Position numbers and translations under genes: made by a program
NCBI RefSeq assembly: GCF_000214665.1
Contig: NC_015572.1
Coordinates: 4,526,001 to 4,590,000 of the forward strand
Source of the DNA: Methylomonas methanica MC09
GTDB taxonomy: Bacteria; Pseudomonadota; Gammaproteobacteria; Methylococcales; Methylomonadaceae
Reading direction: 5' to 3'
DNA: 64,000 bases
The notes under the pieces: generated by a model
Databases searched by the model: none
Told to the model about the DNA's origin: nothing
Seen by the model: the letters and a program-made list of their open reading frames with translations, nothing else
Part shown: positions 5,654 through 64,000 of the stretch, piece after piece
How the letters are laid out: the number at the start of each line of letters is the position of its first letter
Numbering within the stretch: the first letter of the stretch is position 1

Positions 5654-5689
5654 GACAAGGCTTTCTTGCTGTCATTAACTAGCGAGTAC

Positions 5690-5717: not shown

Positions 5718-5870
5718 AAAGATAGTCGTTTTGCGCAGCTCTAAGATACCGAATCCTGCGCCTATGACCTTCAAATCGGCCTATCGGCAAAACCCGCCAC
5801 ACAGCAAAATTTCCGCGCAAACCGGCCGATGTTGTTATCCTTATCGACCGCTTAATTTTCAGTCGACCTC

Positions 5871-8335: not shown

Positions 8336-8339
8336 ATCG

Positions 8340-8369
8340 CGCCGAACGGCAGCACAGACTCATTCGGCG
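8340..8369. terminator. Weak hairpin between acyP and the convergent PEP-CTERM gene
   Basis: CGCCGAA (8340-8346) and TTCGGCG (8363-8369) form a seven-pair stem with a 16-base loop, in the short gap between two convergent genes. There is no T-run on either strand, so termination by it is only a suggestion. Confidence 0.3.
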
Positions 8370-8392
8370 GAACCAGGATAATTGCCGCAAGC

Positions 8393-9868: not shown

Positions 9869-10233
9869 ATTACCCCCGAAAGCGCAAGGAATTAACCGAC
9901 TAAAAATTTCGACTGCGTCACAAAAATAACACTCGCTTTGCGACGCGGTCAAGCAAAATCCCCGCTGTTTTCTTGCCTCGAGAGCTGAAAATGCGGCGGC
10001 AACCCAAGCCCGTTGACGGTTTCGGCAGTCGAACGCCGTCTGACAAAATATGAAACGAATAGTTATATAGGGTTAATGGCGGGTTAAGCGTTCAGGCGCT
10101 CATACCTTTGTATAGAATAAAGTTCTGAAGAATTTCGACTTCGAATCGGATTACAATAGAGTCATTACATAATTATAAATCGCGACGATGCCCCCTCACG
10201 GATTATCCATCGTCTCTATCGGCAGGCACTATT
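9869..10233. promoter_or_regulatory. Divergent promoter region, PEP-CTERM gene / hemC
   Basis: About 365 bases between divergent starts. A TACAAT box at 10152-10157 is a plausible -10 element for hemC, with no good -35. The stretch around 10035-10180 is AT-rich. No gene or structured RNA is recognised. Confidence 0.4.
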
Positions 10234-11160: not shown

Positions 11161-11939
11161 CCTTAAGCCTGCGCGGCGCAACCGTATTGGTAACGCGGCC
11201 CGCCGCCCAGGCCGACACGCTGTGCCGATTGATCGCGCAAGCGGATGGGCGGGCGTTACGATTCCCCACCCTGGAAATTCAACCGATCGACGTCGATAAT
11301 GCCTTAATTGAAAAAGCCTTGACGTGCAATTGGTTGATTTTTACCAGCTCCAATGCGGTGGATTTTGCGCTGAAGGCGTTCGGTGGCAAAATGGCGGGTG
11401 CTATGGCTGTAAAATTAGCGGCCGTCGGCCAAGCAACGGCGTCTGCCTTGCAAAAAGCCGGCTTACAAGTGACTTGCGTACCGAAAACAGAATTCAGCAG
11501 CGAAGGCCTGCTAGCTCAACCTGCCATGCAACAGGTTTCCGGCCAGCGCATCGTGATCGTGCGAGGCATGGGCGGCCGGGAAAAGTTGGAGCACACTTTA
11601 CGTGGCCGTGGCGCGGAAGTGGCATATCTGGAAGTTTACCGTCGTTGCCGTCCGGATATTAAATGCGATGAACTGATTCAGTCCTTGCGAAATCAACAGT
11701 TGAACGCTATCACCATTACCAGTGGCGAAGCACTACAAAATCTGTTGACCATGCTCGACCCGGCAGCCGCGAATCTGCTGCGTAAGCAGCCTTTAATCGT
11801 GGTGAGCGACAGAATCAGGCAATTGGCGCTTGAACTGGGTTTTGATCAGGTTGCAGTCAGTCCGCAACCAACGGATGCAGCAATTTTAGAGACATTGACG
11901 ACGTTATTGAACGGGGAAAACAGTGGCCGAAGTAATTGA
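11157..11939 (+). CDS. hemD: Uroporphyrinogen-III synthase
   Basis: A 260-residue protein of the two-lobed HemD fold. It closes hydroxymethylbilane into uroporphyrinogen III with inversion of ring D. The family is poorly conserved, but [13 protein letters not shown] at the N-terminus, the segment [14 protein letters not shown] and [12 protein letters not shown] are typical. Position between hemC and hemX, coupled by overlaps on both sides (4 and 17 bases), supports the call. Confidence 0.92.
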
Positions 11940-38800: not shown

Positions 38801-39846
38801 CCAGCGGCATTGCGGTTGTGCACCATCAAGACCAACAGGGCGCATGGCTACCCGAATGGCGGCCCTGGCCGGGCGAAAGCGTAAGCTTGCAAATCAGCCG
38901 GCCGCCGGCAGTGCCGGGGCCGACTCTGACCATAGATAAAACCGAGCTGAGCATACAGCCCGGCAAACGCAGCCAGCAAGCCAATTTGAATTTACACATG
39001 CGCAGTTCCAAGGGCGGGCAACATAACGTGCAATTACCGCCGCAAGCCGTGCTGCAAAATGTCGCGATTGACGGCGTCAGCCAGCCTATCCGGCAAAAAG
39101 ACCGAACCGTCACGCTGCCGATCAAGCCGGGCGAGCAACAAGTAACATTGACGTGGCAGCTGCAAACCGAACAGGCCATGATCCTGACCACACCCAAAGT
39201 TGATCTAGGTATCGCCAGCGTCAACAACCAGATACAAGTGATTTCCGGTCAGGATCGCTGGGTGTTATTTACCTTCGGCCCTAAGTTCGGACCGGCCGCA
39301 TTAATTTGGGGTTTGTTGGCGGTGTTATTGATATTGGCCTTCGGCTTAGGTAAAACCACCTTAACCCCGTTAAAGACTTGGCATTGGTTTTTGCTGTTGT
39401 TGGGATTAAGTCAGATCCATATTGCCGCCGGGCTACTGGTAATAGCTTGGTTGTTTGCGCTGGGGACACGGGCAAAATGCCCTCCGGCTTCCTCAACCTA
39501 TTTTAATTTGACTCAAGTAGGTTTAGGACTGTTGACGTTGACGGCGGTAGCATTGCTGTTTGCCGCCGTCCAGCAAGGCCTGCTCGGCGCCCCGGATATG
39601 CAAATTACCGGCAATCAATCCACGCCGTTAAACTTGAACTGGTATCAGGACCACAGCGGCGCCATCTTGCCGACCGCAACCGTGCTAGCCGTGCCGATGA
39701 TGTTTTACCGCGTGCTGATGCTGGGCTGGTCCTTATGGATGGCGCTGGCGCTACTGAATTGGCTGCAATGGGGCTGGTCATGTTTCGCCATGGGCGGCAT
39801 CTGGAAAAAGAAAACCAGCGCAAAACCGGTAAAACTGCCTGAATAA
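35815..39846 (+). CDS. Very large membrane protein of unknown function (1343 residues)
   Basis: Starts at ATG 35815 after GGAG, with a signal peptide ending near ATA. A large beta-rich extracytoplasmic region (about 25-465) is followed by a group of membrane helices (about 470-570), a soluble stretch, two more helices (about 675-725), a second beta-rich extracytoplasmic region (about 750-1155) and a final group of helices (about 1160-1325). It looks like a duplicated soluble-plus-membrane design. No catalytic motif or family is recognised. It is monocistronic, ended by a strong terminator. Confidence 0.8.
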   Translation: MNHARKFLIFLLLFCRPYMATALDIQSLPDTLKPWVSWVTADQPQFECPFFHSNFQQKNCGWPGPVKLDLQDKNGRFSAEWTLYRADWIILPGDNRHWPQQVLINQKPATVIEHQDRPAIWMPAGHYQVNGEFNWDKLPESLAVAQNSGLIQLALNGQSVAYPRIEQGAIWLHSPTATPADTQQDSLDLQVFREVIDDNPLQVNTRLELNVSGTAREISLPHALLPDFIPVRLDSPLPARIETDGSMLLQVRPGRWNITLQARHPKPLPQLDFAVQDPDWPKSELWAFQAVPALRLVEIEALPAVDASQTNLPAEWRHLPTYQIKQGQSMQFKLIRQGDPEPEPNQLNLQRKLWLDFNGGGYTVSDRINGKMTRDWRLSALPDTLLGQVLLNGQNQLITQLGDQQRGIEVRKGALQLQADSRIDNAIGSLNAVGWQQAFQQAQAELNIPPGWRLLAVSGVDNDPDSWLNRWTLLDLFLVLIVALAVARLWCWQWGLVALFSLALFWHEAEAPRWIWLNTLAALALLKVLPPSRFSHWVKWYRNLCWLCLIVIVVPFMIAQIRIGIYPQLEKPWQPIQTGSYVESVADSEGFAEEQRAMAMPASPAPRAARKMMSKAYSSVADYAGAAANFDRIDPEANLQTGPGLPRWQWQTVQLAWNGAVDNRQNIRLWYLSPGWTLLLHIAQALLAALLTLKMLGLINAQWRIAFPASPVWLLVPVLMMPGHDSLADIPDQALLEQLKTRLLQAPKCLPSCAQIAEMAIHIKPDSMQIDMSIHAQEAVAVPLPAQLKQWFPEQVTTDGHPAQALVRQNDGSLWLGLDKGVHDVVLRGRHTPQYKFTLPLPLQPQQTRIDSEGWRVDGLYEDAKVGPQLEFTRLNPEATRQSTHLQQTAMPAFVRIERTLQLGLDWRIATRVVKLADNDSPVVLEFPLLPGEAVTSAKIRVKDGKVLVNIPAGQASMEWQSLLEKREQLQLTAPENASWSELWRADVSPIWHLQTSGIAVVHHQDQQGAWLPEWRPWPGESVSLQISRPPAVPGPTLTIDKTELSIQPGKRSQQANLNLHMRSSKGGQHNVQLPPQAVLQNVAIDGVSQPIRQKDRTVTLPIKPGEQQVTLTWQLQTEQAMILTTPKVDLGIASVNNQIQVISGQDRWVLFTFGPKFGPAALIWGLLAVLLILAFGLGKTTLTPLKTWHWFLLLLGLSQIHIAAGLLVIAWLFALGTRAKCPPASSTYFNLTQVGLGLLTLTAVALLFAAVQQGLLGAPDMQITGNQSTPLNLNWYQDHSGAILPTATVLAVPMMFYRVLMLGWSLWMALALLNWLQWGWSCFAMGGIWKKKTSAKPVKLPE

Positions 39847-50777: not shown

Positions 50778-52532
50778 ATGAAATTTCTCGATCAAGCGCC
50801 GCGTTTCCTGTTTTTTACCGGCAAGGGCGGCGTGGGTAAAACCTCGGTGGCCTGCGCAACGGCCATTCGGCTGGCGGAATCAGGGCAACGGGTGTTGCTG
50901 GTCAGCACCGACCCGGCCTCCAATGTCGGCCAGGTATTCGGCGTTAGTATAGGCAACCAAATCACGCCTATTCCGGCAGTGCCCGGTTTGGCGGCGTTGG
51001 AAATCGACCCGCAAGCGGCGGCGCAAGCTTACCGCGACCGTATCGTCGGCCCGGTACGCGGCCTGCTACCCGACACTGTCATTCAAGGTATTGAAGAACA
51101 GTTATCCGGCGCCTGTACTACCGAAATTGCCGCCTTTGACGAATTTACCGCGCTGTTGACCGACCCTGCGCTGACTGGCGATTTCGAACATATCGTTTTC
51201 GATACCGCACCGACCGGCCACACCATCCGCCTGTTGCAACTGCCGGGGGCCTGGAGCGATTTTCTGGACACGGGCAAGGGCGACGCCTCCTGTCTTGGCC
51301 CGCTGGCCGGCCTGGAAAAACAGCGAACTCAGTATAAGTCCGCGGTAGACGCCTTATCCGATGGCGCACGCACCCGACTGATCCTGGTGGCGCGCGCTCA
51401 GCACAGCACCTTAACCGAAGTGGCCCGCACTCACACGGAACTCGCCGCCATCGGCTTGCGGAATCAATATTTGTTGATCAACGCGCTGCTGCCTGCCGGC
51501 GAGACTACCGAAGACGCTTTGGCGCAGGCGATTTATATGCGCGAGCAAACTGCTCTGCGGCAGATCCCGGCAACATTGCAAGAACTGCCTCGCGATGACG
51601 TATTTCTGAAGCCTTTCAATATGGTAGGGCTGGCTGCCTTGCGGCAACTGTTGCTGGACACCCCCGTACAGCCGACTGCAGTTGCCGCTGTCGCCGATCT
51701 CGATACGCCCAAGCTCGCCGAATTGGTCGATACCATAGCCAAAGACGGTCACGGCCTGATCATGCTGATGGGCAAGGGCGGCGTAGGCAAAACCACCTTG
51801 GCCGCGGCCGTGGCCGTGCAACTGGCGCAACGCGGCCTACCGGTACATTTGACCACCTCCGATCCGGCCGCGCATTTAAACGAAACGCTGAACGGTGCGT
51901 TGGAACAATTGACGGTGAGCCGCATCGATCCGGTAGTCGAGACCGAACATTACCGCCGACATGTTCTGGAAACCAAGGGGGCTAAGCTGGATGCGCAGGG
52001 CCGGGCTTTGTTGGAAGAAGACCTGCGTTCGCCATGCACCGAAGAAATCGCCGTATTCCAGGCCTTTTCGCGGATTATTCGCGAAGCGGGCCAAAAATTC
52101 GTGGTGATGGACACCGCACCGACCGGACACACTTTGCTGTTGCTGGATGCCACCGGCGCATATCACCGGGAAGTGGCCCGGCAGATGGATAGCGGCGTGC
52201 ACTATCTGACGCCGATGATGCAATTGCAAGACCCCAAACAAACCAAAGTGCTGCTGGTAACGCTGGCCGAAACCACGCCGGTACTGGAAGCCGCCAATCT
52301 GCAAGCCGATCTGCGCCGTGCCGGTATCGAACCCTGGGCTTGGATCATCAATAACAGCGTTGCCGCAACCCCAGTGCAGGCTCCTTTGTTACGCCAACGG
52401 GCAGCAAATGAACTGCGCGAAATCGATACAGTCGCACGCAGCCACGCCCAGCGCTACGCCGTAGTGCCTTTATTACAGGAAGAGCCGATTGGGGTTAAGC
52501 GTTTGTCGCAGTTGGCGGGCAGCACAGTTTAG
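50778..52532 (+). CDS. arsA: Arsenite-transporting ATPase ArsA
   Basis: A 584-residue ATPase made of two homologous halves. P-loops GKGGVGKTS (about 15-23) and GKGGVGKTT (about 332-340), with the DTAPTGHT signal-transduction motif in each half. As(III)-binding cysteines Cys113, Cys172 and Cys420 are all present, matching positions 113, 172 and 422 of R773 ArsA. It energises the export pump. Here its partner would be the Acr3 carrier encoded two genes on, a pairing known in other ars operons. Confidence 0.96.
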   Translation: MKFLDQAPRFLFFTGKGGVGKTSVACATAIRLAESGQRVLLVSTDPASNVGQVFGVSIGNQITPIPAVPGLAALEIDPQAAAQAYRDRIVGPVRGLLPDTVIQGIEEQLSGACTTEIAAFDEFTALLTDPALTGDFEHIVFDTAPTGHTIRLLQLPGAWSDFLDTGKGDASCLGPLAGLEKQRTQYKSAVDALSDGARTRLILVARAQHSTLTEVARTHTELAAIGLRNQYLLINALLPAGETTEDALAQAIYMREQTALRQIPATLQELPRDDVFLKPFNMVGLAALRQLLLDTPVQPTAVAAVADLDTPKLAELVDTIAKDGHGLIMLMGKGGVGKTTLAAAVAVQLAQRGLPVHLTTSDPAAHLNETLNGALEQLTVSRIDPVVETEHYRRHVLETKGAKLDAQGRALLEEDLRSPCTEEIAVFQAFSRIIREAGQKFVVMDTAPTGHTLLLLDATGAYHREVARQMDSGVHYLTPMMQLQDPKQTKVLLVTLAETTPVLEAANLQADLRRAGIEPWAWIINNSVAATPVQAPLLRQRAANELREIDTVARSHAQRYAVVPLLQEEPIGVKRLSQLAGSTV

Positions 52533-52581
52533 CCACAGAACCCGCCCTAACTTTAACCATGGGCCTAACCCGGACACAACC

Positions 52582-53016
52582 ATGAAACGTTTTCACATTC
52601 ACATTGCCGTAGACGACCTGGAACAAAACATCCGCTTCTACAGCGCCTTGTTTCAAACCGAACCCACGATCCTGGAAACGGATTATGCCAAATGGATGCT
52701 GGACGACCCGCGCATCAATTTCGCCATCTCCAATCGGGGACGCAAAGCGGGACTGGATCATTTGGGCCTGCAAGTCGAGTCCGGCCCGGAACTGGAAGCC
52801 GTGCAACAAGGCTTGTCCGCCGCGGCCTTGCCGGTCGCCGCGCAAAAACAGGCGGCCTGCTGCTATGCGCAATCCGACAAATACTGGAGCGTAGACCCGC
52901 AAGGCATCGCCTGGGAAGCCTTTCACTCCTTGAACGCCATTCCGATGTTTGGCGCGGATGAGGTGATACAACTCGAACCTACCTCCAGTTGCTGTAAACC
53001 AGCCACGGAAACCTAG
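52582..53016 (+). CDS. arsI: Putative ArsI-type C-As lyase (VOC/glyoxalase superfamily)
   Basis: A 144-residue protein starting at ATG 52582 ([20 protein letters not shown]). VOC-fold metal ligands: His5 or His7, His60 in [10 protein letters not shown], and Glu in GIAWEAF. A vicinal cysteine pair Cys93-Cys94 ([12 protein letters not shown]) is at the position where ArsI C-As lyases bind trivalent organoarsenicals. The family also contains CadI-annotated proteins. Location in an ars operon supports oxygen-dependent cleavage of the carbon-arsenic bond, giving As(III). A Cys pair also sits near the C-terminus (SSCCK). Confidence 0.82.
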
Positions 53017-53048
53017 TACTTCAAAACCACCATTTCAAGAAGCACGCC

Positions 53049-54119
53049 ATGAATACAACCAGCTACCCGCATCCCCGCCTATCCTTTCTTGATCGCTATC
53101 TGACCTTGTGGATTTTTGCCGCCATGGCGGCCGGCGTGGCGATCGGCTTTGCCTTTCCCGGCGAAGTGACCGGCTTCAACAGCGCGGTTTCCATCGGCAC
53201 CACCAATATCCCCATCGCCATCGGCTTGATCGTGATGATGTATCCGCCGCTAGCCAAGGTGCATTACGAAGAGCTGGGCGATGTATTTCGCAATTGGCGA
53301 GTCTTATCCCTGTCGCTGGTGCAAAACTGGCTGATCGGCCCGGTTTTAATGTTCGCGCTGGCCCTGCTGTTTCTGCGCGATTACCCCGAATACATGACCG
53401 GGCTGATCCTGATCGGTCTGGCCCGCTGCATTGCGATGGTCATCGTCTGGAACGAACTGGCGCGCGGCGACAATGAATACGCCGCCGGTCTGGTGGCATT
53501 CAACAGCGTGTTCCAGGTACTGTTTTATAGCGTTTACGCTTGGTTGTTCATCACCGTGTTGCCGCCGCTGTTCGGTCTGCAGGGCAGTCTGGTCGACATC
53601 ACCATAGCCGAGATCGCCAAAAGCGTGTTCATTTATCTGGGCATCCCCTTCATTGCCGGCTTTATCACCCGCCATGTCTTGGTCAAAACCCGAGGTAAAG
53701 ACTGGTACCAGCACAGTTTCGTGCCCAAGATCAGCCCGCTGACCTTGCTTGCGTTGCTGTTTACCATCGTGGTGATGTTTTCCCTGAAAGGCGATTTGAT
53801 CGTACAACTGCCACTGGACGTGGTGCGCATTGCCATCCCGCTGTTGATTTACTTTGTGGTGATGTTTTTGGTCAGTTTTGTCATGGGCAAGGCCATAGGC
53901 GCGGATTACCGCAAAACCGCCACCTTGGCATTTACCGCCGCCAGCAATAACTTCGAACTGGCGATTGCCGTGGCGGTAGCGGTATTCGGCATCAATAGCG
54001 GCGCGGCGTTTGCGGCCGTGATCGGGCCGCTGATCGAAGTGCCGGTGATGATCGCCCTGGTGAACGTGGCGTTTTGGTTTAGAGCGCGGTTTTATTCAGA
54101 CGATACGCCCGCCGTCTGA
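53049..54119 (+). CDS. acr3: Arsenite efflux carrier Acr3
   Basis: A 356-residue membrane carrier with ten hydrophobic segments. The conserved Cys127 in [13 protein letters not shown] and the glutamate-containing helix [20 protein letters not shown] are the known functional sites of Acr3. It exports As(III) using the proton-motive force, possibly coupled to ArsA. Last gene of the ars operon; its stop is one base from that of the convergent Sco-peroxidase gene. Confidence 0.95.
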
Positions 54120-54120
54120 A

Positions 54121-56001
54121 TTATTGGCTGTCCCCCACTGGCGCGGCGAAGGCATCGGACACCAGGGTTTCGACGTTGCTGCCGTTCAACGCCTGTAAAA
54201 AAGCAACCAAGTCGTCGATTTCCGCGGCCGACAAACCCAAGGGCTTGATCAACGGCGACAGGTTTTCGTTAGCGACACCACCCTGGTTGTAAAACGCCAC
54301 CACCTGTTTCAGGCTGGCCAGACTACCGTTATGCATGTAGGGCGCACTGAGCGCTACGTTACGCAAGGACGGGGTTTTGTAAGCCCAGCGGTCGGTCGGG
54401 TTTTGGCTGATTTCGTAATAGCCCAAGTCATTGGCCTTGGCTTCGGCGACACCTTGCAGGCTTTTATTATCCACATCCACAAACACCCCCGGCGCCACTT
54501 GTACCCGTTGCTTTTCCGGCGCCTTTTGCATTGAATCGGCATAGCCGATACCGGTGTTGTGGCGTTTCTGGTCGGTAAACAAGGCGGTTTTTTCGCCTAT
54601 ACTGTGGCAACTGCTGCAGGCCGCCTTGCCGGTAAATAGCTTGAATCCGCGCTGTGCCGCATCACTCAAGGCCTGGCTTTGTTTGCCGAAATACCAGCGG
54701 TCGAACGGCGAATCCGCCGAGTTCAAGGTGCGCTGGTAGCTAGCCAAAGCTTGGCCTATGGTTTCCATGGTCGGCCCCTTATTAAAGGCCTTTTCGAACC
54801 AGCCTCGGTAATCCGCACTAGCCTTGATTTTGTCAACTACATAACCGATAGATGGGTTGCCCATTTCGTTATGCGCCAGCAGCGGCCCCCACACCTGTTG
54901 CTCCAGGCTGTTTTCCCGGCCATCGTGGAACAACAATTGCGCATAGCCGACGTTATACAGCGATGGACTATTACGCCGCACGCTGCGGCCCTCTATGCCG
55001 ACGGCGGTAGCCATTTCGTTGCTGCTGAAACCTTGCTCCGGAATATGGCAGATCGCGCAGGAAAAGGTGTTGTTGAACGATAGCCTGCGGTCGTAAAACA
55101 GCTTACGGCCCAATTCGATTTTAGCGCTGGTTAGCGGGTTATCTTTTGGCTGCGGTAGTTTCGGCAAGCCCAGCGGCGGCTTGTTGGCAAACTCGATCAG
55201 CTTGGCCGGCTTGCCCTGTCTATGTTCCAGCGCCAACGAACGGGTTTGGTAATCGGCTTGCTGATAGTTCTGCTTGTTGTCGCCGGCTTGATACAAGCGT
55301 TCTCCGGCCACCGGTTGGGCAGCCTCCGGCTTATGATCTATCAGCAAGGTTTTCACGTCGTTGATCACCGTGTCGGCATGCAGAAAGTCCACGTTGTAGA
55401 TATTGCGGATATTTTTATCGGTATCGATCAGATACACCCGCAGCAAATGCGAAAACGTGCCGGTAAATTGGCCCTTATCGTCGTAAATTTTTTGCACGTT
55501 TTGCTGATAGGCATCCAGTATAGGCTGCAGGGTGTGCTCGTCGCGGGTGGTTAAAAACCGCCAATCGAAATCGCCGGTCTTAAAGCCAGCACCGTAATGG
55601 CGCATCATTTCCGGCGTATCGTTGCTTGGATTGAAACTCAAGGTCAGCAAACGCAGTTTTGCAGCCAGCTCCGGCTGTTTTTGCAACTGCCGGCTGATTT
55701 TATGCAGTACCTGGGTCGCCAGCGGGCAACCGTTTACGTCGCTGCAAGTGGCGTAAATAAAGCTTAACAACACCACTTTATCGCCCATCAAATCGTGCAG
55801 GCGTTTGGGCTGATTGTCGCTGGTCAAAATCTCGCCGTCGCCGGCAGCGCCGATCACCGGCAACGTGTAACTGGCGGGCGCCGCCAATTGATACGGCAAA
55901 GCGGCATAACCGGGTGCCAAGGGAGGTGCGGGTGTGGTCTCGGCCTGACAGGCAAAACCGCTTAACAGAGCCAACAGGCCGATAAAATAAGACGCTTTCA
56001 T
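54121..56001 (-). CDS. Sco-domain / di-heme cytochrome c peroxidase fusion
   Basis: A 626-residue periplasmic protein, start ATG 56001 with a signal peptide to about CQA. The first part (about 20-220) is a Sco/thioredoxin-fold domain with YATCSDVNGCPLA; its cysteines are spaced CX5C rather than the usual CX3C, and the Sco His is in FSHLLRVYLID. The second part (about 265-620) is a MauG/CcpA-type di-heme domain with CXXCH motifs CAICH and CSSCH. It may reduce peroxide or make a redox-linked metal site. It converges on acr3, so it is not in the ars operon. Confidence 0.88.
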   Translation of the reverse strand: MKASYFIGLLALLSGFACQAETTPAPPLAPGYAALPYQLAAPASYTLPVIGAAGDGEILTSDNQPKRLHDLMGDKVVLLSFIYATCSDVNGCPLATQVLHKISRQLQKQPELAAKLRLLTLSFNPSNDTPEMMRHYGAGFKTGDFDWRFLTTRDEHTLQPILDAYQQNVQKIYDDKGQFTGTFSHLLRVYLIDTDKNIRNIYNVDFLHADTVINDVKTLLIDHKPEAAQPVAGERLYQAGDNKQNYQQADYQTRSLALEHRQGKPAKLIEFANKPPLGLPKLPQPKDNPLTSAKIELGRKLFYDRRLSFNNTFSCAICHIPEQGFSSNEMATAVGIEGRSVRRNSPSLYNVGYAQLLFHDGRENSLEQQVWGPLLAHNEMGNPSIGYVVDKIKASADYRGWFEKAFNKGPTMETIGQALASYQRTLNSADSPFDRWYFGKQSQALSDAAQRGFKLFTGKAACSSCHSIGEKTALFTDQKRHNTGIGYADSMQKAPEKQRVQVAPGVFVDVDNKSLQGVAEAKANDLGYYEISQNPTDRWAYKTPSLRNVALSAPYMHNGSLASLKQVVAFYNQGGVANENLSPLIKPLGLSAAEIDDLVAFLQALNGSNVETLVSDAFAAPVGDSQ

Positions 56002-56049
56002 AAATTCGGTCCACGCTGTGGGTTTAAATTTCGCCGGCGGGCATTCCAT

Positions 56050-56335
56050 TTATCCCAGCAACACATATTATAAAAAACTAATATTCTATTTGGCCGCCGC
56101 TGTCAACTCTAGCGGGTATTTTAGGTTGGTGGATTTGGGCCGGGGTGTTGAAATATTGATATTCACGTTGACTTCGCACTCTTTCTAATCGACCTCGGCG
56201 AAAATCATCGAAAGCGGTCGTTAGGAGAAATCAAAGTTGATCGTCGTAACCGGCCATTAGCCGACCTCGACATTTTGGCTCAGAGTGGCGGCAATGGAAC
56301 ACATACTTGCCTTTCAAGTTAGTACCATATGATAG
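56050..56335. other. Intergenic region at the end of the AT-rich operon
   Basis: About 285 bases. It holds the promoter side of the Sco-peroxidase gene and the downstream end of the ChrB-like operon. AGTACCA (about 56321) and TGGTACT (about 56341) could form a hairpin near the operon end, without a T-run. No gene is seen. Confidence 0.35.
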
Positions 56336-56836
56336 TTACTTTGGTACTGGTGTCTTGGCTGACTCATATTTAGAGAAGTACTGATAACACTGCTCCACTA
56401 TATATTCCTTATATTCCTTATTCGGCGATGAGATGATAGCGTTCACCGTCTTCTCCAAATCGGGAGTCTCGGCCATTATTTTTTTTTCCCAAATATTCAC
56501 TTCGATATCATGAATGATCTGACCCAAGTAGATAAGTTTTTCTTCTTTCAGCTTATAGTGCTCCAACAGTGTTTCAAATGTCGATTGGTTATGATATCGC
56601 CTAAATTTCGCTGATGGCGTATCGAACTCAATTCCTTCAGTAATTGGTTCGCCCTTTTTGAAAAATCGTATTTCTGCTTGCGGCGAAATATAACGTTTTA
56701 TCAACCAGATTGAGGCGCATTTGTCCACTTCAAAAGTATCCCACGTAGAGAAAACCAGCTTTTCATCCTCGGCAGCTACTGTATTCACCAATAATACAAT
56801 CCAGAAAATAAATAATATTTTACCTATAGAAGACAT
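56336..56836 (-). CDS. Secreted stand-alone ChrB C-terminal-type (Chrome_Resist) domain protein
   Basis: A 166-residue protein with a signal peptide (to about VAA) and then one domain like the C-terminal half of the chromate-resistance regulator ChrB. Seen: FEVDKCASIWLIKRYISPQAEIRFF, then GIEFDTPSAKFRRYHNQSTFETLLEHYKL and IIHDIEVN, which follow the family pattern (DRxACPWLIRRFIDPxAEF; FDxPxAxFxH; TFExLL). The ChrB N-terminal half and any chrA transporter gene are absent. It overlaps the ABC ATPase gene by 13 bases, so it is an envelope component of that operon. Function unknown. Confidence 0.72.
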   Translation of the reverse strand: MSSIGKILFIFWIVLLVNTVAAEDEKLVFSTWDTFEVDKCASIWLIKRYISPQAEIRFFKKGEPITEGIEFDTPSAKFRRYHNQSTFETLLEHYKLKEEKLIYLGQIIHDIEVNIWEKKIMAETPDLEKTVNAIISSPNKEYKEYIVEQCYQYFSKYESAKTPVPK

Positions 56837-57546
56837 GTTTTATACCAATCCAACAAATCCATGTTGCTAAAATTCAAAAAACCTTGCTTGCCAATATCCT
56901 GTATAAAACCCCCTCTATTCATAACAACTATTCGGTCGGCAAAGTTTAGTATTTCATCGAAATTATGTGTCGCGTAGATGATCGTCATATTCGTGTTAAT
57001 ATTCAATGATCGAATCAAATCAACAACGTCACTCTTGGTGATAGGATCAAGATTATTAAATGGCTCATCCATCAGCAAGATATCTGGATTGGTAATAATC
57101 GCTCGAGCAATTGCCAAGCGCTGCCTTTCTCCACCGGACAAATCGCTTGGAAAACATTTTGCATACCGCAACAATGAGACTTTCTCTAATATCCCATAGA
57201 TTAATTCAACGCGGCTAGTCTTGGACATAGCCAATTTTTTTGCTGCAAAAGCAACGTTTTGAAAGACCGTCATATGTGGCCAAAGCGCAAGCTCCTGGAA
57301 AATCATGGCTAAGTCACGCTTAGCAGGTACTAAGCAAAACGACTCGGAACTCAATATCCGGCCATCCTTGGAAATTTCACCCTGGTTCGGCTTCTCAAAA
57401 CCCGCCAAAAGGCGTAAAAGAGTCGTTTTACCGCAGCCTGAAGGACCTAAAATGGCTAATACTTTTCCTCTTTCTAGTTCGATGGATACATTCTCCAACA
57501 CACGGTTATCGGCATAGGATTTAAAAAGATTTTTTACCTGGATCAT
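56824..57546 (-). CDS. Fbp/Afu-type ABC transporter ATPase
   Basis: A 240-residue ATP-binding subunit. Walker A GPSGCGKTT, Q-loop MIFQELALWPHM, signature LSGGERQRLAIARA, Walker B ILLMDEPFNNLD and the switch His in YATHNFDE. The start is taken as ATG 57546, which overlaps the permease stop (TGATG); an adjacent TTG at 57549 is possible. It lacks the C-terminal regulatory extension found in FbpC (about 350 residues). Confidence 0.93.
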   Translation of the reverse strand: MIQVKNLFKSYADNRVLENVSIELERGKVLAILGPSGCGKTTLLRLLAGFEKPNQGEISKDGRILSSESFCLVPAKRDLAMIFQELALWPHMTVFQNVAFAAKKLAMSKTSRVELIYGILEKVSLLRYAKCFPSDLSGGERQRLAIARAIITNPDILLMDEPFNNLDPITKSDVVDLIRSLNINTNMTIIYATHNFDEILNFADRIVVMNRGGFIQDIGKQGFLNFSNMDLLDWYKTCLL

Positions 57547-59144
57547 CAAGTCAAGCCCGATACATTAACGCGTTTATAGAGCCGCGTTAACCCAAACCAA
57601 ATCGAATATTGAAAAAACAACAGCATCAAACAAAAAGCAGCTACCAAACTAGTGGCCCCGTAATGAAGATAATTATAAATCACGATGGGTATCGTTTCCG
57701 AACCAGCAGGCATAATGAGCAAAGAAGTTCCTAAGTCCGCAAGAGAAAGCGAGAAAACAACGACAAATGCAACTAAAAGACTGGACCCCAACATAGGTAA
57801 GATAACAATACCTTGCACGCTCCACCAATGATTACTGGCTAATAGACCTGCCTCTTCAAAAGCCGATGGAATCTGCTGCAAACCGGAGTAAATAACTCGA
57901 ATCGCGAATGGAATTAAGTGTGCCAAATATCCTACTATAAGAATTGTCGGACTTCCATATACCCAATCGGTCACAGGTTGGTTCCATACTTTAATGAGTC
58001 CTATCCCGAGTAAAATAGGTGGTACGGCAAATGGAAGCTGGGTGAGATAATCCAATATTAACTTAAGTTTTCCGGTAGTTTTAGTTAGAGAATAAGCCAA
58101 AATAAATGCAACCGATACCACTGCTAAAGCTGCAAAAATCGATAAAAGCAAGCTAAATTCAATAGAATTGGCAGAAGCAATCCAAGCTTTTTCAAGGCTA
58201 TGCAAATCTCCCGTCATGTAAACTAAACAAATAATAGGTACAACAACGGATATTAAAATTATTAAAGAACAGTAACAAATAGCAACAATATTGCCTGCTC
58301 CGGTTTTAATTAAAAAAAACGGCTTTTGACTTCTACTAAAATTTATAAATGACTTGTCTTTCATAACCCAAAGCCCAGCCGCAATGAGCAGAGAGTTAAG
58401 CAACAACAACGGCACAGCTAGCATGATTGCAGCGCGCTCGTTGTACATTGCACTATATTCTATAAATATTTCTACCGGATACACTTTTACGCGCAAAAGA
58501 TCAGGAACACCAAAATCAATAATAGAAAAGATAAAAACGAAAATTCCACCAGCAATTACTTGTGGCGCAATCATTGGCAAAGTTACAAAAAATAAACTTT
58601 TAAACCAATTACCGTGCAACAAAGCCATTTCTTCGTAACCAGAATCCAGATTCTTCAATCCACTTTCCACCAACAAGGTAATAAAAGGGAAATAAGAAAA
58701 GGCTAAAACAAAAACAGCCCCCATGAGATTATGGATGTCAAACGGTGAGTTTGCTATATGTAACCTCATAATGATCCGATTTAGCCACCCTTCGTGTGCA
58801 AAAATTTCGCTCCACACTATCGTTTGCATGTAGGGAGGTATTAATAGAGGGAATAAATACAGTGATTGAAAGACCCACCGCCCCCATATCCTAATTCGTT
58901 GCACAAAAAATGCATAAGGAACGCCAATAACAAGCGCCAACCCCGTTGCACCGGCAGCTAACTTTACGCTACGACCGAGTAAAGAATACTGATTTTCAGA
59001 AAGGAAGAAATTGCCGCTAATACCGCTGTTTATTAAGAAAGTGTTCGGATCAATAGCATCGAAAATTAGTCGACTAATCGGCCAATAGACCGCGCCAAGA
59101 AAAATGAACCAAGCAGTGATTGTCAGCCATTTTGGGATAAGCAC
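57546..59144 (-). CDS. Fbp/Afu-type ABC transporter permease (duplicated)
   Basis: A 532-residue permease with two homologous halves and about twelve membrane segments. Each half carries an EAA-type loop for the ATPase: YEEMALLHGNWFKSLFFVTLPMIAPQ and FEEAGLLASNHWWSVQGIVILPML. This is the FbpB-type fused permease of the iron(III)/thiamine-like class. The start is GTG at 59144, six bases after the binding-protein stop. Confidence 0.92.
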   Translation of the reverse strand: MLIPKWLTITAWFIFLGAVYWPISRLIFDAIDPNTFLINSGISGNFFLSENQYSLLGRSVKLAAGATGLALVIGVPYAFFVQRIRIWGRWVFQSLYLFPLLIPPYMQTIVWSEIFAHEGWLNRIIMRLHIANSPFDIHNLMGAVFVLAFSYFPFITLLVESGLKNLDSGYEEMALLHGNWFKSLFFVTLPMIAPQVIAGGIFVFIFSIIDFGVPDLLRVKVYPVEIFIEYSAMYNERAAIMLAVPLLLLNSLLIAAGLWVMKDKSFINFSRSQKPFFLIKTGAGNIVAICYCSLIILISVVVPIICLVYMTGDLHSLEKAWIASANSIEFSLLLSIFAALAVVSVAFILAYSLTKTTGKLKLILDYLTQLPFAVPPILLGIGLIKVWNQPVTDWVYGSPTILIVGYLAHLIPFAIRVIYSGLQQIPSAFEEAGLLASNHWWSVQGIVILPMLGSSLLVAFVVVFSLSLADLGTSLLIMPAGSETIPIVIYNYLHYGATSLVAAFCLMLLFFQYSIWFGLTRLYKRVNVSGLT

Positions 59145-59150
59145 AGATAG

Positions 59151-60149
59151 TTATCTTGAAAATAACTGTCTGGAAAAGATAAAAGCTGACTCCATTCGAT
59201 CAGCTATTGATTGATAATCCAAATTCATTGTGTGCAGCGACGATAATGACGGGACATATTCCGGTTTTTTTACATGCTCACGGAGCGGAATCTGCATCGA
59301 TTCAGAAAAGGCCAAAGCACTTTCTACTTCTTCGGATAGTAAATAATCGATTAATTGGCGCCCTGCATCCAGGTGAGGTGCGTTACTAATTAATGAGACC
59401 GTATTTGGAATAAGTAAGGAACCTATACCATCCTGATCCGGGTATACCATTGCCACATTTTTTTTTGCTTTTATGGCCGAGTAGACATCATCAGTATCGG
59501 TAAAACCAATCGCCTCGCTCCCTGCGACAACCATATCCCTGGAAACTGAATTTCCGTCTACGATTTGAACACCGTTCTTATACATATCGCTTAAATAGTT
59601 TTTGGCTTTATCTTCACCTAAAAGAGCAAATAGAGCAGCGACATGCGTTGAAGTGGTGCCAAATAATGGATAACCCATCACCACCTTTCCGTGCCATTTT
59701 GATTGGGTCAGGTCAAATATTGACTTTGGAGTTTCCGAATTATCGACCAACTGAGTATTGACAATCAACACTCTAGCTCTGGCAGCAAAGCCGGTCCAGT
59801 ATCCATCCACATCTTTGAAACGCGCCGGGATAGCCGTACTTGACGGAGAAACATAGGGGGAAAGCACCCCCATTCTTTTCAAGATCAACGTTCTGCCGAT
59901 CTCAGAATTCCAAAACACATCGGCATTGGGATGGCTTTTCTCTGCAATGAGCCGATTGACTAAGCCGGTCGTTTTTGAGGCTTCGACATCATAAACCGCT
60001 TTTACCTTGATACCGGTTCGACGCTCGAATGCCTGTAGTACGGGCTCGGAAAAAACCTGATCCAAAGAGGTATAAACAACCACTTCATCAGCATGTGCTG
60101 TCCCTGCCCAAGAACAAATTATAAGAAGAAATCTTGCCAGGATTTTCAT
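59151..60149 (-). CDS. Fbp/Afu-like periplasmic binding protein, ligand uncertain
   Basis: A 332-residue exported protein (signal peptide to AHA). The N-terminus EVVVYTSLDQVFSEPVLQAFERRTGIKV, DVFWNSE and GFTDTDDVYSAI place it in the Fe(III)-binding FbpA/AfuA superfamily. The tandem tyrosines that bind iron in FbpA are not visible at the usual position, where TDTDD is found. The cargo may be iron with another ligand set, or something else. Overlaps the ferric-reductase-like gene upstream by ATGA. Confidence 0.87.
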   Translation of the reverse strand: MKILARFLLIICSWAGTAHADEVVVYTSLDQVFSEPVLQAFERRTGIKVKAVYDVEASKTTGLVNRLIAEKSHPNADVFWNSEIGRTLILKRMGVLSPYVSPSSTAIPARFKDVDGYWTGFAARARVLIVNTQLVDNSETPKSIFDLTQSKWHGKVVMGYPLFGTTSTHVAALFALLGEDKAKNYLSDMYKNGVQIVDGNSVSRDMVVAGSEAIGFTDTDDVYSAIKAKKNVAMVYPDQDGIGSLLIPNTVSLISNAPHLDAGRQLIDYLLSEEVESALAFSESMQIPLREHVKKPEYVPSLSSLHTMNLDYQSIADRMESAFIFSRQLFSR

Positions 60150-60814
60150 CGGCCACTTCGTTTTAAGTGCTCTGAGATAGCGCCGCGATTAGAGAAGCCA
60201 AGCCAAACCCGATAACAAATCGCCAACACTATACTTGCCAGCAATAATCCAAAAACGAAGGGCATTGGGGCAATCCGCGTTTCGCTACCTATTGAATAAC
60301 TATGAAACCAAGCCAAAAAAAACGCCGGCCAAGCCAGTCGATGCATCCAAATCCAAACTCCGTCATTGTGCCTTACAAAAATCGCCGAAAGCACACCCAC
60401 GATTACCAAACACGCGGCGAGCAGACCTAATGAAACCATCGCTGGGTAATAGCTTTCGAAAAAATTAGGCAATAAGAATTTATAGGCGAAATGCTGGTTT
60501 CTAAGAGATGCCGCTGTCACAAATAGACCGCCATGCGATATTAAAAGCACCAGCACCCAAAGCCCTAACTTCCGATGCGAAGATTTATTCACTAATTGAT
60601 ATCCGCAAGACGAGAGCAATCCTAGAAGCAGTTGCAGCCCAAAAAACACAAAGGCAAATAAACCACACAATTTTGAAAGCAAGTATAAAAACTGACCGTC
60701 CGGCACTTGGTAAAAGAAATAAACGCTAAGATCGCCTTCGGTTTTTAGAAACACCCATCCTGGAACCAAAAATAACAGCGCAAGCAACCATTCCGATTTT
60801 GAAAAATTGACCAT
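60146..60814 (-). CDS. Ferric-reductase-like transmembrane heme protein (MsrQ/YedZ fold)
   Basis: A 222-residue protein with about six membrane helices. Paired histidines in neighbouring helices fit a b-heme electron conduit: SHRKLGLWVLVLLISHGG in one and WMHRLAWPAFFLAWFHSYSIGS in another. No flavin or NAD(P)H domain is attached. The ATG at 60814 has GGAG upstream. In this operon it may move electrons across the membrane to reduce a substrate before or during uptake by the ABC system. Confidence 0.8.
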   Translation of the reverse strand: MVNFSKSEWLLALLFLVPGWVFLKTEGDLSVYFFYQVPDGQFLYLLSKLCGLFAFVFFGLQLLLGLLSSCGYQLVNKSSHRKLGLWVLVLLISHGGLFVTAASLRNQHFAYKFLLPNFFESYYPAMVSLGLLAACLVIVGVLSAIFVRHNDGVWIWMHRLAWPAFFLAWFHSYSIGSETRIAPMPFVFGLLLASIVLAICYRVWLGFSNRGAISEHLKRSGR

Positions 60815-60829
60815 ATTAACAACTCCGTT

Positions 60830-61345
60830 TCAAGAAGCGCTTTTCTGTGGACATTGATTTTTGTCCTGAGCGCAGACATGTAGGCGCGCTAAAGCCTTTG
60901 CTTCGGTCAATCCGCGCTGTCCCGCAACTGGTAAGCCATTTTTCTTCCAGCCATTGATGCCATGGTCTTTCATCAGTTTGACATTATGTAAGCCCCTTAC
61001 CTGCAAAGCCCTACCAAGCTCGTAACCGCGGAAATCCTTTAAACAATAAGTGACCACCAAATCCGCATCATTGAACCGACTAGCAACAGCATCAGGCACC
61101 TCCCGTAACGTCATATTGAAAGCACCTGGCAAATGATCCTCCTCAAATTCAGCGGGCTCTCTCGCGTCGATAAATACGACTTTAGCGCCGCTATTGACTT
61201 GCGCCAAGATCTCATCGCTATTGACAATGGGAATCAAGTCGGTTGCCTGCCCACCTAAAGCAAGCGGTTGGTGGAGCTTATCCATCAACCCATAGCCATA
61301 GCCCAGCAAAAGCAGACCAGCAACGAAAAATGCGTTTTTAATCAT
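60830..61345 (-). CDS. Membrane-anchored periplasmic rhodanese-domain protein
   Basis: A 171-residue protein with an N-terminal anchor or signal (about 4-22) and one rhodanese domain (about 40-145). The catalytic cysteine is in TYCLKDFRGYE (Cys then Arg six residues on), with FIDAREPAEFEEDHLPGAFN at the start. The C-terminal tail adds two more cysteines (HVCAQDKNQCPQ). It is likely to carry sulfane sulfur or to reduce an oxyanion in the periplasm. Fifteen bases before the ferric-reductase-like gene. Confidence 0.87.
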   Translation of the reverse strand: MIKNAFFVAGLLLLGYGYGLMDKLHQPLALGGQATDLIPIVNSDEILAQVNSGAKVVFIDAREPAEFEEDHLPGAFNMTLREVPDAVASRFNDADLVVTYCLKDFRGYELGRALQVRGLHNVKLMKDHGINGWKKNGLPVAGQRGLTEAKALARLHVCAQDKNQCPQKSAS

Positions 61346-61394
61346 TCTTTCAATCCAGGCAACAAAACATCAAACCGTAGCTCATCATGGGTTA

Positions 61395-62537
61395 CTACCT
61401 GACAATGTCAAAAAGCACGCTTGCCACGCCGACTTTTCCGCTGAAACCGGAAATATTGACCGTCAACAAGTGTCTACCCGGCGTTATTTGCTGGGGTAGC
61501 CATTGCCATGTTAGGGGTACGTAGCCTTGTTCTTCTTCCGCCACAAACTCATGATCAACAAAAAAGGCCACTTCATAAAGACTTTGCTTCATCATCCAAC
61601 GGTCTTGTGGGGCAATGTCAGCTTTTACCGCAACCGGAGAATTTAATTTGATCTGCGCCACGCCATCGGGCGTCTTTTTCAGTGTTTCCTGCAAGGTTAA
61701 AGAAACGTCAGGCACAGCATCAAAAGCACGAGGTGCATAATAGTGCGGAGAAATTGCCGTCCCGTTACGGCTCGTCTGCATTTTTTCGGGGGCGAGAACC
61801 TTGTCTTCCCAATGTTTAGCCAGTCTATAAGCGCGATAATCAAGTTCTTGATTACCATAGGTTAAAATAGCATTCTCAGGTAATTTAAAAGCGATAACCA
61901 AAACGCCTAAATTGGGCTCCTTACGAATATCGATCAATCCATTTTGATCCTTGCCGTCCCAATGCTGAACATTTTTGCCCGCTCCTTTGGCTTGCCAACT
62001 GCTCAGGTTACGCAACATTGCCCCGCCCTTGATGCCCGCTCGGATTAACACCCGGCAAGAAGCTGGTAGAGAATAAGCAATTTCTTGATCCGGCGTAATT
62101 TCCACCGGCACTTTTTCAACCAACTCTCCGCCACTATAAGTGCGCGGATCGATGATCTGCTTCTCGCCGCTTTCGGTTTCCACAGTCAGAACCGGAATAT
62201 AAGCCTCATCGGGAACCACGGTTCCTGAATCGTCCTTTCCATCCCAAACCAGCTGATTAAGGCCAATTTCCAGTCCATCCGTCCGGGTGACGGTTTTGAC
62301 GAGCTCGCCATCGGATGTATATACGCTTAACGATACCGAAGCAACGTTTGCCTGCAACTGTACCGGCACCGAATAGGTTTCGCCTCGGCTTGGTGAAAAT
62401 TCATAAGCCCCGTTATTCGCAAATCCAACGACAGCGGGACTTGCTTCATTAGAAACGCTTTCCGGCGCAACTGTGCCCACGGAACTGCAACCTTGCAATA
62501 TGAGGGTAGCGAACAACAAACTATGCCTAAATAGCAT
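61395..62537 (-). CDS. Lipoprotein with FlgD-like Ig domains, function unknown
   Basis: A 380-residue lipoprotein (lipobox LQGC). Two FlgD-like beta domains are visible by the recurring WDGKD pattern: NQLVWDGKDDSGTVVPDEAY and VQHWDGKDQNGLIDI. The C-terminal part (about 290-380) is a further beta domain. These folds usually bind other envelope proteins. No enzymatic motif. It lies 49 bases before the rhodanese gene in the same direction. Confidence 0.75.
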   Translation of the reverse strand: MLFRHSLLFATLILQGCSSVGTVAPESVSNEASPAVVGFANNGAYEFSPSRGETYSVPVQLQANVASVSLSVYTSDGELVKTVTRTDGLEIGLNQLVWDGKDDSGTVVPDEAYIPVLTVETESGEKQIIDPRTYSGGELVEKVPVEITPDQEIAYSLPASCRVLIRAGIKGGAMLRNLSSWQAKGAGKNVQHWDGKDQNGLIDIRKEPNLGVLVIAFKLPENAILTYGNQELDYRAYRLAKHWEDKVLAPEKMQTSRNGTAISPHYYAPRAFDAVPDVSLTLQETLKKTPDGVAQIKLNSPVAVKADIAPQDRWMMKQSLYEVAFFVDHEFVAEEEQGYVPLTWQWLPQQITPGRHLLTVNISGFSGKVGVASVLFDIVR

Positions 62538-62584
62538 GAAAGATCCTTGTGTGATTGTTGATTGGCATGACTTATTACATAACG

Positions 62585-63457
62585 CTATTGGCGTATTTTC
62601 AAATCCCTAACATCAGTGACGCCTTCCGGCAAAGTCAGTTCGATTGGTTCCGCGCCGTCTTGCCATTGCATGATGCCCCCCCTGCCATCCGCCGAATGGC
62701 GAATAAAATATAAATGCCCTTCGCTATCCAACGCAGGACTTTCGTCGGTCACTGCCCCACTGGTTAATTGCCGATAAGTATTGCTCGCCAAAGATAATTG
62801 CCAGATATGGTAATAACCGGCTTTGTTGGAGGAAAAATATAAAGTTTCACCGTCTTTCGACACCACAGGTTGTCGAGCAATAGAATTGGTTAAAGTGACC
62901 TGCTCGGCGATGCCGCTGGTTAAATCCTTACGCCAGATTTCCTGGATAATTCGACCGCAATCTTCGGTGCAATGGACGTTGGAATAATAGAGCGTATTGG
63001 GTGGCTGAAAATAAGGCTCGAATTGAGCAGAACGTTGATTGACGGCAATCTTCCATTGCCCGTTCTCGCGCACCAAGATATCGGTATCCACGCTAGCACC
63101 TTCTTTTAACGACACTAGAAATAAACGTTTACCGTCTTCGTCATAAGCCGGTTGAGTATAAGCGTGACCTTTTCCCGCTAGCTTCAGAATACTATCCGCA
63201 GAATCCAGATAACTCGCTTCATGTAGGGAAGCATCGGAGCCGATATAAGCATACTTCTGGCTTTTATAATTAAAACTAGGGTTACGGGGCTCGGATATTG
63301 CTGGTAGCTCAGTAAATATTCCGGATTTCTCGACATAAATTAACCATTGGTTTTGATTTAAGCCCATAAAAGACAAGCCCGATGGAATAACTTGCGCCAA
63401 TGCATTTAAGCTAAAACCCATCATGATCGCGAATAAAATAGTTGGTTGAATTAGCAT
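62585..63457 (-). CDS. TolB-like beta-propeller periplasmic protein
   Basis: A 290-residue exported protein (signal peptide to about ALA). Repeats of the PD40/TolB kind are visible: RNPSFNYKSQKYAYIGSD, TQPAYDEDGKRLFLVS, RQPVVSKDGETLYFSSN and DESPALDSEGHLYFIRH. This is a six-bladed propeller surface for protein contact. It is not TolB proper (no N-terminal domain, no tol genes). First visible gene of the AT-rich operon. Confidence 0.8.
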   Translation of the reverse strand: MLIQPTILFAIMMGFSLNALAQVIPSGLSFMGLNQNQWLIYVEKSGIFTELPAISEPRNPSFNYKSQKYAYIGSDASLHEASYLDSADSILKLAGKGHAYTQPAYDEDGKRLFLVSLKEGASVDTDILVRENGQWKIAVNQRSAQFEPYFQPPNTLYYSNVHCTEDCGRIIQEIWRKDLTSGIAEQVTLTNSIARQPVVSKDGETLYFSSNKAGYYHIWQLSLASNTYRQLTSGAVTDESPALDSEGHLYFIRHSADGRGGIMQWQDGAEPIELTLPEGVTDVRDLKIRQ

Positions 63458-63806
63458 AGCTACCTGGATTATTTTCTCAAGTCAATGGTTAGCTTACAGC
63501 TATTCTTAAGCTTACTGTAACCAATGGTCCCCCCTTTTATATCTGTTACGGAAAATTATTTTAGGCAGTAGTCAAGACTCTTTCAGGTCTAAAAACTAGA
63601 ATAATAATGCTAGCTCACCAGACTTTTATGTAGCTCGTTTTGCTAAGCCTTTAGAAGAAATTTTTACGATCCTCTCCATAAGCTCTGAACGGGCAAACGT
63701 GTCCACCCTATTGGTTCGCCCGTAGCTGAAAAGTAACAACATCTATAATCCTTGAAGGAAGCACTTACCTCATGACTACCATACCCAATAGCATGCCTAA
63801 TTTTTA
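63458..63806. promoter_or_regulatory. Upstream region of the eight-gene operon
   Basis: About 350 bases, AT-rich, containing the probable promoter of the operon reading leftward. An imperfect inverted repeat with CGGGC (63690-63694) and GCCCG (63718-63722) encloses GTGTCCACCCTA, a string common at the ends of decayed mobile sequences. No gene is seen. Confidence 0.4.
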
Positions 63807-64000
63807 TTACTCATTAGATTCTACACGGACAAACCCAAATTTCCTCATATGCTTTCCGACAATATTTTTCGAAAACCAAGCTTCTATTTCTGGATAAAGA
63901 TTAATCGCCTTAGTTACTATTTTTTCTACATTCTCAGCGTTCTTTTCTGAAAACAGCCCTAATTCAAACCAACTTGGCCAGATTGATTGACTATATAGAC
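63807..64000 (-). CDS. Unknown protein, C-terminal 64 residues, truncated by window edge
   Basis: A minus-strand frame is open from the right edge to a TAA at 63807-63809. The readable end contains WPSWFELGLFSEKNAENVEKI and GKHMRKFGFVRVESNE, with codon use like the AT-rich genes to its left. No family is recognised from this fragment. It has the same orientation as the operon beyond the 350-base gap but is probably separate. Confidence 0.5.
   Translation of the reverse strand, partial: LYSQSIWPSWFELGLFSEKNAENVEKIVTKAINLYPEIEAWFSKNIVGKHMRKFGFVRVESNE

Follow-up and report, generated by a model that had tools for sequence, protein, structure and literature searches.

An envelope operon of Methylomonas methanica MC09 that adjoins, and may serve, a secreted RHS toxin-like protein

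The operon and the RHS block upstream of it

The window analysed here, a stretch of 64,000 nucleotides (positions 4526001–4590000), lies in the single-contig 5.05 Mb genome of the gammaproteobacterium Methylomonas methanica MC09 and contains an operon of eight tightly spaced open reading frames (ORFs) on the minus strand at 56336–63457. The coordinates are those of an initial annotation of the window, and the ORFs and their Pfam matches bear out most of the families named there: a PD40 beta-propeller, a FlgD-like protein, a rhodanese, a reductase-like protein, the three components of an ABC importer and a ChrB_C domain protein (Table 1). The operon edges drawn in that annotation halve the unit; the conserved neighbours start at window position 63807 and lie mostly past the window end. 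On the same strand, 349 bases upstream of the operon, stands an immunity-like gene, followed outwards by genes for an RHS protein, a protein of 131 amino acids (aa) and a PKD/FlgD_ig protein. The gene set accompanies a secreted RHS toxin-like protein in several bacteria of unrelated lineages, and the literature searched contains no description of it. The annotation had likewise named no described system with this set, and there is none among the literature matches listed, which comprise titles and the beginnings of abstracts, with subscription journals mostly outside.

In the order of transcription, the gaps are 47 bases between the PD40 and FlgD-like genes, 49 between the FlgD-like and rhodanese genes and 15 between the rhodanese and reductase-like genes. 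The reductase-like and binding protein genes overlap by 4 bases, the permease gene follows after a gap of 6, and the permease/ATPase and ATPase/ChrB_C overlaps are 4 and 13 bases. The region is more AT-rich than the rest of the window, as had been remarked: the guanine plus cytosine fraction is 0.41–0.46 in the 2-kb blocks of 56001–64000, while 26 of the remaining 28 blocks lie at 0.50–0.59 and two at 0.445 and 0.475. The window contains no tRNA and no Rfam match at the gathering score.

Table 1. Genes of the operon and of the adjoining RHS block. L043 is the own-genome locus; its coordinates plus 59999 give window coordinates.
Feature	Length (aa)	Window	L043	Strand	Basis
PD40/TolB-type beta-propeller, exported	290	62585..63457		-	PF07676
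FlgD_ig-containing exported protein, locus hallmark	380	61395..62537		-	PF13860
Rhodanese, predicted membrane-anchored, periplasmic		60830..61345		-	PF00581; C101-LKDFR catalytic loop, C-terminal Cys pair
Ferric-reductase-like/MsrQ-like membrane protein		60146..60814		-	PF01794, 24.9 bits, E 2.3e-5, under cut-off 28
ABC importer substrate-binding protein, PhnS2/FbpA superfamily		59151..60149		-	SBP_bac_6/8; without FbpA Tyr pair
ABC importer permease		57546..59144		-	Two BPD_transp_1 stretches; relatives in Thiodictyon, Thiohalocapsa
ABC importer ATPase	241	56824..57549		-	ABC_tran
Stand-alone ChrB_C domain, exported	166	56336..56836		-	PF09828, 104 bits
Immunity-like gene (3' part in window)	173 (whole)	63807..64000, continues past window	3808-4329	-	DUF4304, under cut-off
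RHS/YD-repeat protein	1187		4354-7917	-	DUF6531 and nine RHS repeat stretches (PF05593, E 1.6e-69)
Small exported protein	131		7920-8315	-	No Pfam match
PKD + FlgD_ig protein	1092		8333-11611	-	Pfam

Beside the operon, arsenic-type genes occupy 50778–54119: an ArsA ATPase, a small ORF, which we take to be VOC-like, and an SBF-family transporter, presumably ACR3-like. A single 642-aa ORF at 54121–56049 combines a SCO1/SenC domain with an MbnH/MauG-type di-heme enzyme. Elsewhere in the window, a 1343-aa ORF (35815–39846) has no Pfam match at 1e-5.

Recurrence of the locus

The first relatives came from plasmids (Thiodictyon and Photobacterium) and sampled genomes. Plasmid carriage as a general rule was rejected, since a match to the FlgD-like protein at 1e-5 is present in only 2 of 72,556 plasmid records. 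Its profile matched 141 of 398 genomes of the phylum, over the whole length in three only (own, G576 and G623), the others being mostly short proteins of flagellar-FlgD size. A FlgD-like alignment run against a collection of 84,980 species gave 31 named loci, of which L107–L109 have no FlgD-like protein above threshold. Hosts of the locus include Saccharospirillum, Marinobacter, Halovibrio, Photobacterium, Thiosymbion, Thiohalocapsa, Endobugula, metagenome-assembled genomes (MAGs) named only 'bacterium' and a Nitrospirales MAG. Once duplicates (L088, L096, L041, L076, L077 and L078) are removed, and with loci that have no FlgD-like protein above threshold left uncounted (L039, L040, L107, L108, L109 and L113), the FlgD-like gene is found in 35 distinct loci, own genome included, mostly in Gammaproteobacteria and in one case in the Nitrospirales MAG. 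The presence thresholds in these counts were chosen within this analysis, and the 35 loci are not independent, because L085 and L086 belong to one genome and the RHS, rhodanese and reductase of L038, L100 and L106 are almost the same.

PD40 passes the threshold in 34 of the 35 loci, rhodanese and reductase are both present in 22, and RHS is likewise found in 22, always on the FlgD-like strand (22/22). Where at least 7.9 kb is covered on both sides, 14 of 16 loci have RHS; the remaining two are L105 and the Thiodictyon locus L037, where an annotated same-strand RHS gene lies about 9 kb off, past two transposase genes and cut by the edge. In 14 of the 22 RHS loci, the PD40/FlgD-like pair is separated from RHS by PKD-type and small-protein genes. 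The commonest order (11 loci) is rhodanese with or without ChrB_C, reductase-like, PD40, FlgD-like, PKD/FlgD protein, small protein, RHS. The own genome and the Nitrospirales locus L079 have the RHS block (PKD, small protein, RHS, immunity-like) first and then PD40, FlgD-like and the redox genes; RHS is also first in L099, L101 and L112, and last in 14 loci. Conservation of the neighbourhood, which the initial annotation had set as a check and whose absence it named as a refutation, is thus found, in that parts of the set occur together in other genomes.

Ten locus-bearing genomes have 10, 1, 2, 2, 5, 3, 1, 1, 7 and 1 DUF6531 matches; as they were chosen from RHS-positive loci, these counts show the rarity of RHS and not an unbiased rate. 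In the four genomes with a single match, Marinobacter changyiensis, Halovibrio salipaludis and Photobacterium salinisoli among them, that match is the RHS gene of the locus.

Within the own family, the window ChrB_C protein is matched in 29 of 151 genomes. Besides the own genome, G113, G125, G032 and G098 have a ChrB_C–rhodanese fusion and a reductase-like gene, RHS being in view in G032 only and the other three lying on short contigs; the remaining 24 matches are mostly ChrB-like proteins of 312–403 aa. In G098 (L113 1–9330), the ChrB_C–rhodanese gene stands downstream of a gene block whose products resemble multiheme cytochromes. A search anchored on the reductase-like protein gave matches in 5 of 369 genomes of the class: the own genome, G198 and G230, both with the complete locus and its RHS gene, G336 with fusion and reductase only on a 4.7-kb contig, and one marginal match in a 935-aa frame. 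Candidatus Endobugula sertula has two copies of the locus (L085 and L086), the second with a short 78-aa ChrB_C ORF and its RHS in pieces.

The RHS protein and its envelope partners

By crude hydropathy, the measure used throughout for such segments, 17 of 19 RHS proteins begin with a hydrophobic segment; several of the segments missed in these counts reflect doubtful gene starts. Three Photobacterium RHS proteins, the only close set compared for tip variability, were aligned in 60-column blocks. Identity is 87–100% over columns 1–960, 60–85% over columns 961–1020, 25–87% over columns 1021–1080 and 8–37% over columns 1081–1200. The own tip and the immunity-like protein are 80% (181 aa) and 60% (161 aa) identical to their counterparts at the corresponding position in the Nitrospirales MAG, so that the gammaproteobacterium (L043 3808–7917) and the MAG (L079 4829–8963) have the pair in common. 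A small ORF directly follows most of the RHS genes listed, and extra RHS fragments lie close by in L038, L075, L085, L094, L100 and L106. At the sequence level, the conserved body, the changing tip, the RHS fragments and the tip/neighbour pair match the polymorphic-toxin pattern. Immunity-like gene arrays also adjoin the ABC-type variant of the locus, at L102 7595–8685 (DUF4304, 54 bits) and at L037 17238–19009 (with DUF1493 and an annotated MafI-type gene). The N-terminus of the own RHS protein has a signal-like segment, then the motif HFPWDQGHDTT and then a Cys-rich stretch; the exact FPWDQ-x-HD codon pattern occurs once among the 10 DUF6531 matches of the own genome and in 1 of 369 class genomes, the own one.

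The AlphaFold2 model of the FlgD-like protein (predicted local distance difference test score, pLDDT, 89) has Ig-type domains, and its structural matches are Ig-type and macroglobulin/complement-type. The FlgD_ig domain agrees with the name 'FlgD-like lipoprotein' given in the initial annotation; the lipoprotein part is doubtful, as none of 31 FlgD-like proteins matches the standard lipobox, the window copy, with a non-standard LQGC, included. A hydrophobic N-terminal segment is present in 30 of 31 FlgD-like proteins, 13 of 16 small proteins, 24 of 24 rhodaneses and 21 of 22 ChrB_C proteins. Because most parts carry such segments, we interpret the set as machinery of the periplasm and outer envelope that serves RHS; in the main variant, only the reductase-like protein is evidently in the inner membrane.

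By the same hydropathy measure, full-length copies of the reductase-like protein have 4–6 membrane segments. H80 and H94 are kept in 25/25 rows and H158 and H171 in 24/24 (residue-conservation rows count the own protein twice, from the window and from L043). The four invariant His residues, two pairs on membrane helices, are probably heme ligands for two b-hemes, and the protein is a likely heme electron conduit, as the initial annotation had supposed. For 15 members, the nearest families are Ferric_reduct (7/15), MsrQ, weakly (3/15, best E 5.6e-4), and MamZ (1/15); NCBIfam gives no match at 0.01 for the window protein. In the rhodanese, C101, K103, D104, F105 and R106 are found in 25/25 rows, so that the catalytic Cys of the CxxxxR loop is kept, and the C-terminal Cys pair is largely conserved (C158 in 19/21 rows, C165 in 19/20). 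One of the six seeds of the rhodanese hidden Markov model (the L042 piece) was out of frame, and matches were confirmed by the conserved loop. Rhodanese and ChrB_C form one fused protein in 18 distinct loci.

The window ChrB_C protein (model pLDDT 89) matches ChrB_C only in Pfam and has a hydrophobic N-terminal segment and no N-terminal ChrB half. Its Cys150 is present in 21/21 rows with a letter at that column. In Ochrobactrum ChrB, R180, R187 and H229 are needed for the chromate response, according to the part of PMC3817168 consulted. Mapped by spacing, these residues fall on window columns 32, 39 and 80 (C213 falls on column 65), which hold W, K and R in the window protein and R, R and H in 22/22 canonical rows. 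Among 24 system rows, column 32 has W in 20, R in 3 and H in 1, column 39 has K in 17 with R not among the four commonest residues, and column 80 has R in 22, K in 1 and a gap in 1. As the chromate-response residues are mostly replaced, ChrB_C is unlikely to be a chromate sensor here. The domain has membrane modules of three kinds as partners: rhodanese with reductase, the ABC importer, or a membrane protein to which it is fused. The last is seen in L103 (9114–10349), an RHS locus in which ChrB_C carries an N-terminal membrane domain and no rhodanese or reductase was seen.

The ABC importer is an optional part of the locus: besides the window, it was seen only in Thiodictyon (L037), Thiohalocapsa (L102) and the MAG locus L080, where the genes are more diverged and, on 4.8 kb cut by the contig end, fall under the locus thresholds. 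In all four, the ABC genes are followed by a stand-alone ChrB_C. The sequence covered for L037, L102 and L080 contains no rhodanese or reductase, and the window has both modules. In FbpA, an adjacent Tyr pair binds Fe(III); the binding proteins of the locus have Asp-Asp where aligned FbpA-family proteins have Tyr-Tyr (3/3). Most of the PDB entries that the binding protein matches in sequence are named as iron-binding, and the NCBIfam scores shown for the importer proteins are all far under the cut-offs. In FastTree phylogenies, a Methylococcaceae MAG groups with the window for the FlgD-like (support 0.99), reductase-like (0.96) and rhodanese (0.99) proteins, but the window ChrB_C groups with Thiodictyon and Thiohalocapsa (0.935). 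Because these placements conflict, the window operon looks like a mosaic of an ABC–ChrB_C module and a rhodanese–reductase system, which may be the reason that it looked unlike anything known.

Interpretation and comparison with known systems

We regard it as very likely that the set and its RHS gene are one functional unit, and suggest, with a probability of roughly 0.6, that the eight genes are the envelope half of a locus dedicated to an RHS polymorphic toxin exported through Sec. A role in the export, maturation or display of RHS is probable. Once the RHS protein has been exported through Sec, folding, transport or display of its shell at the outer membrane would fall to the PD40, FlgD-like, PKD and small proteins. 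The inner-membrane reductase-like protein would hand electrons over two b-hemes to the periplasmic rhodanese/ChrB_C protein, a path suggested by the fusion, the gene order and the conserved ligands, and thiol or persulfide chemistry on that protein could then mature or activate the RHS complex. In some lineages, the ChrB_C protein and the ABC importer may replace the rhodanese/reductase role; the window operon has both. The Cys cluster at the RHS N-terminus is a candidate target of the redox chemistry, and a specific thiol redox step is doubtful. There is a fair chance that the locus represents a new delivery route. In its full form, which we put forward only tentatively, the PD40/FlgD/PKD/small-protein apparatus of diderm cells would assemble Sec-exported RHS toxins and move them across the outer membrane, heme-borne electrons from the inner membrane would activate this apparatus through the rhodanese/ChrB_C relay, and the ABC importer would be an interchangeable or additional source of power or cofactor.

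Several observations weigh against a dedicated toxin locus of this kind. RHS was not seen in 13 of the 35 loci, although 11 of these have less than 7.9 kb on at least one side; L105 has no RHS, rhodanese, reductase or ChrB_C in view, and L090, L098 and L102 have no RHS in about 10 kb on one side. In L104, RHS lies about 6.5 kb from PD40 in a genome with 7 DUF6531 matches. The three closely related Photobacterium loci have no ChrB_C, and an N-terminal hydrophobic segment is found in 21 of 31 PD40 proteins, the misses coming partly from uncertain starts. No Pfam family matches the own RHS tip, and the proteins scanned include no recognisable outer-membrane pore or known component of a secretion system. 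Nor is the FPWDQ-x-HD motif general: other genomes with the locus (for example, G198, G230 and G336) lack it or have it in altered form. Cysteines at the RHS N-terminus number 3 or 4 in 11 RHS proteins, 2 in L085, one in L038, L100, L106, L101 and L103, and none in L112, which has rhodanese and reductase in the locus; this variation counts against a simple model in which the rhodanese loads the RHS cysteines, and we rejected that model.

The set could instead build a surface adhesin or coat, with RHS and PKD as structural proteins and toxicity either incidental or lacking. Large surface proteins commonly contain PKD and FlgD_ig domains, both are present here, and the FlgD-like model has Ig-type domains. 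However, the steep drop in identity at the RHS tip of the Photobacterium trio, the small genes directly after most RHS genes and the extra RHS fragments in six loci speak against such a role, and we consider it unlikely.

In the initial annotation, the operon was taken to act on a metal or oxyanion, reducing or processing it in the periplasm, with the ABC transporter as the route of import. We now hold this to be very improbable. The recurrent partner of the set is RHS, whereas the ABC genes are rare, and with a ChrB_C that lacks the chromate-sensing residues and binding proteins that have Asp-Asp for the FbpA Tyr pair, import of a metal or oxyanion is unsupported and a chromate or ferric system was rejected. 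The iron-binding names of most PDB matches and the presence of reductase-like and ChrB_C domains are what speak for it.

A comparably poor prospect is that the rhodanese, ChrB_C, reductase and ABC genes form an immunity or stress-response arm against envelope damage by the cell's own RHS toxin and have no part in maturation. Near-identical rhodanese and reductase accompany different tips in the Photobacterium trio, which speaks against such an arm, even though its products are predicted to be periplasmic or in the inner membrane and the redox/ABC composition varies by lineage while PD40 stays in 34 of 35 loci.

That two unrelated units, a redox/import operon and an RHS cassette, merely adjoin because they favour the same insertion hotspots is very unlikely: the 349-base gap in the own genome and the occurrence of the halves in either order would suit it, but the strand is conserved in 22/22 loci, the PD40/FlgD-like pair and RHS flank PKD-type and small-protein genes in 14/22, and the locus RHS is the only DUF6531 match in four genomes. 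Anti-phage defence was rejected, as PADLOC gave no match at 0.001 for any of the ten proteins scanned, a set that does not include the permease and the ATPase.

MsrPQ periplasmic methionine sulfoxide repair has in common with the proposed toxin locus a small heme-b-type membrane protein that may feed electrons to a periplasmic partner; here, however, the partner is the rhodanese/ChrB_C protein, and none of the eight operon products matches the molybdopterin reductase. The ChrB_C domain is shared with ChrB of chromate resistance, for which the consulted part of PMC3817168 reports a rhodanese-like region at the C-terminus. The locus protein differs in being exported, in having no N-terminal ChrB half, in the replacement of most equivalents of R180, R187 and H229, and in its own invariant Cys150. 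FbpA-type ferric and PhnS2-type aminoethylphosphonate importers resemble the ABC module in domain composition and in the superfamily of the binding protein, but the module departs from them in the missing Tyr pair, in its low NCBIfam scores and in its tie to an RHS locus. TcdB/TcaC-type export likewise combines RHS repeats with a beta-propeller protein, yet the two RHS proteins scanned have no SpvB/TcdB domain. The same two proteins have no PAAR or VgrG domain, unlike RHS effectors delivered by type VI secretion, and hydrophobic N-termini predominate among the RHS proteins.

A further comparison is with the Sec-dependent RHS polymorphic toxins of Zhang et al. 2012 (PMC3482391), which, in the text portion examined, share the signal peptide, RHS repeats, variable C-terminal tip and adjacent immunity-like gene. 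In Table 1 of that paper, the entry of the Sec pathway under signature neighbourhood genes is a dash, and rhodanese, FlgD and PKD are not mentioned in that portion. As described there, the Sec route has no signature neighbourhood, so that the exit of large RHS toxins with plain signal peptides from diderm cells lacks a candidate. In contrast, a dedicated set recurs here, including a presumed electron conduit and a rhodanese/ChrB_C protein. The redox half is unexpected and suggests that toxin export or activation may be tied to inner-membrane electron flow or sulfur chemistry. The compact recurring set, on the RHS strand in every RHS-bearing locus, is a testable candidate for the exit of Sec-dependent RHS toxins.

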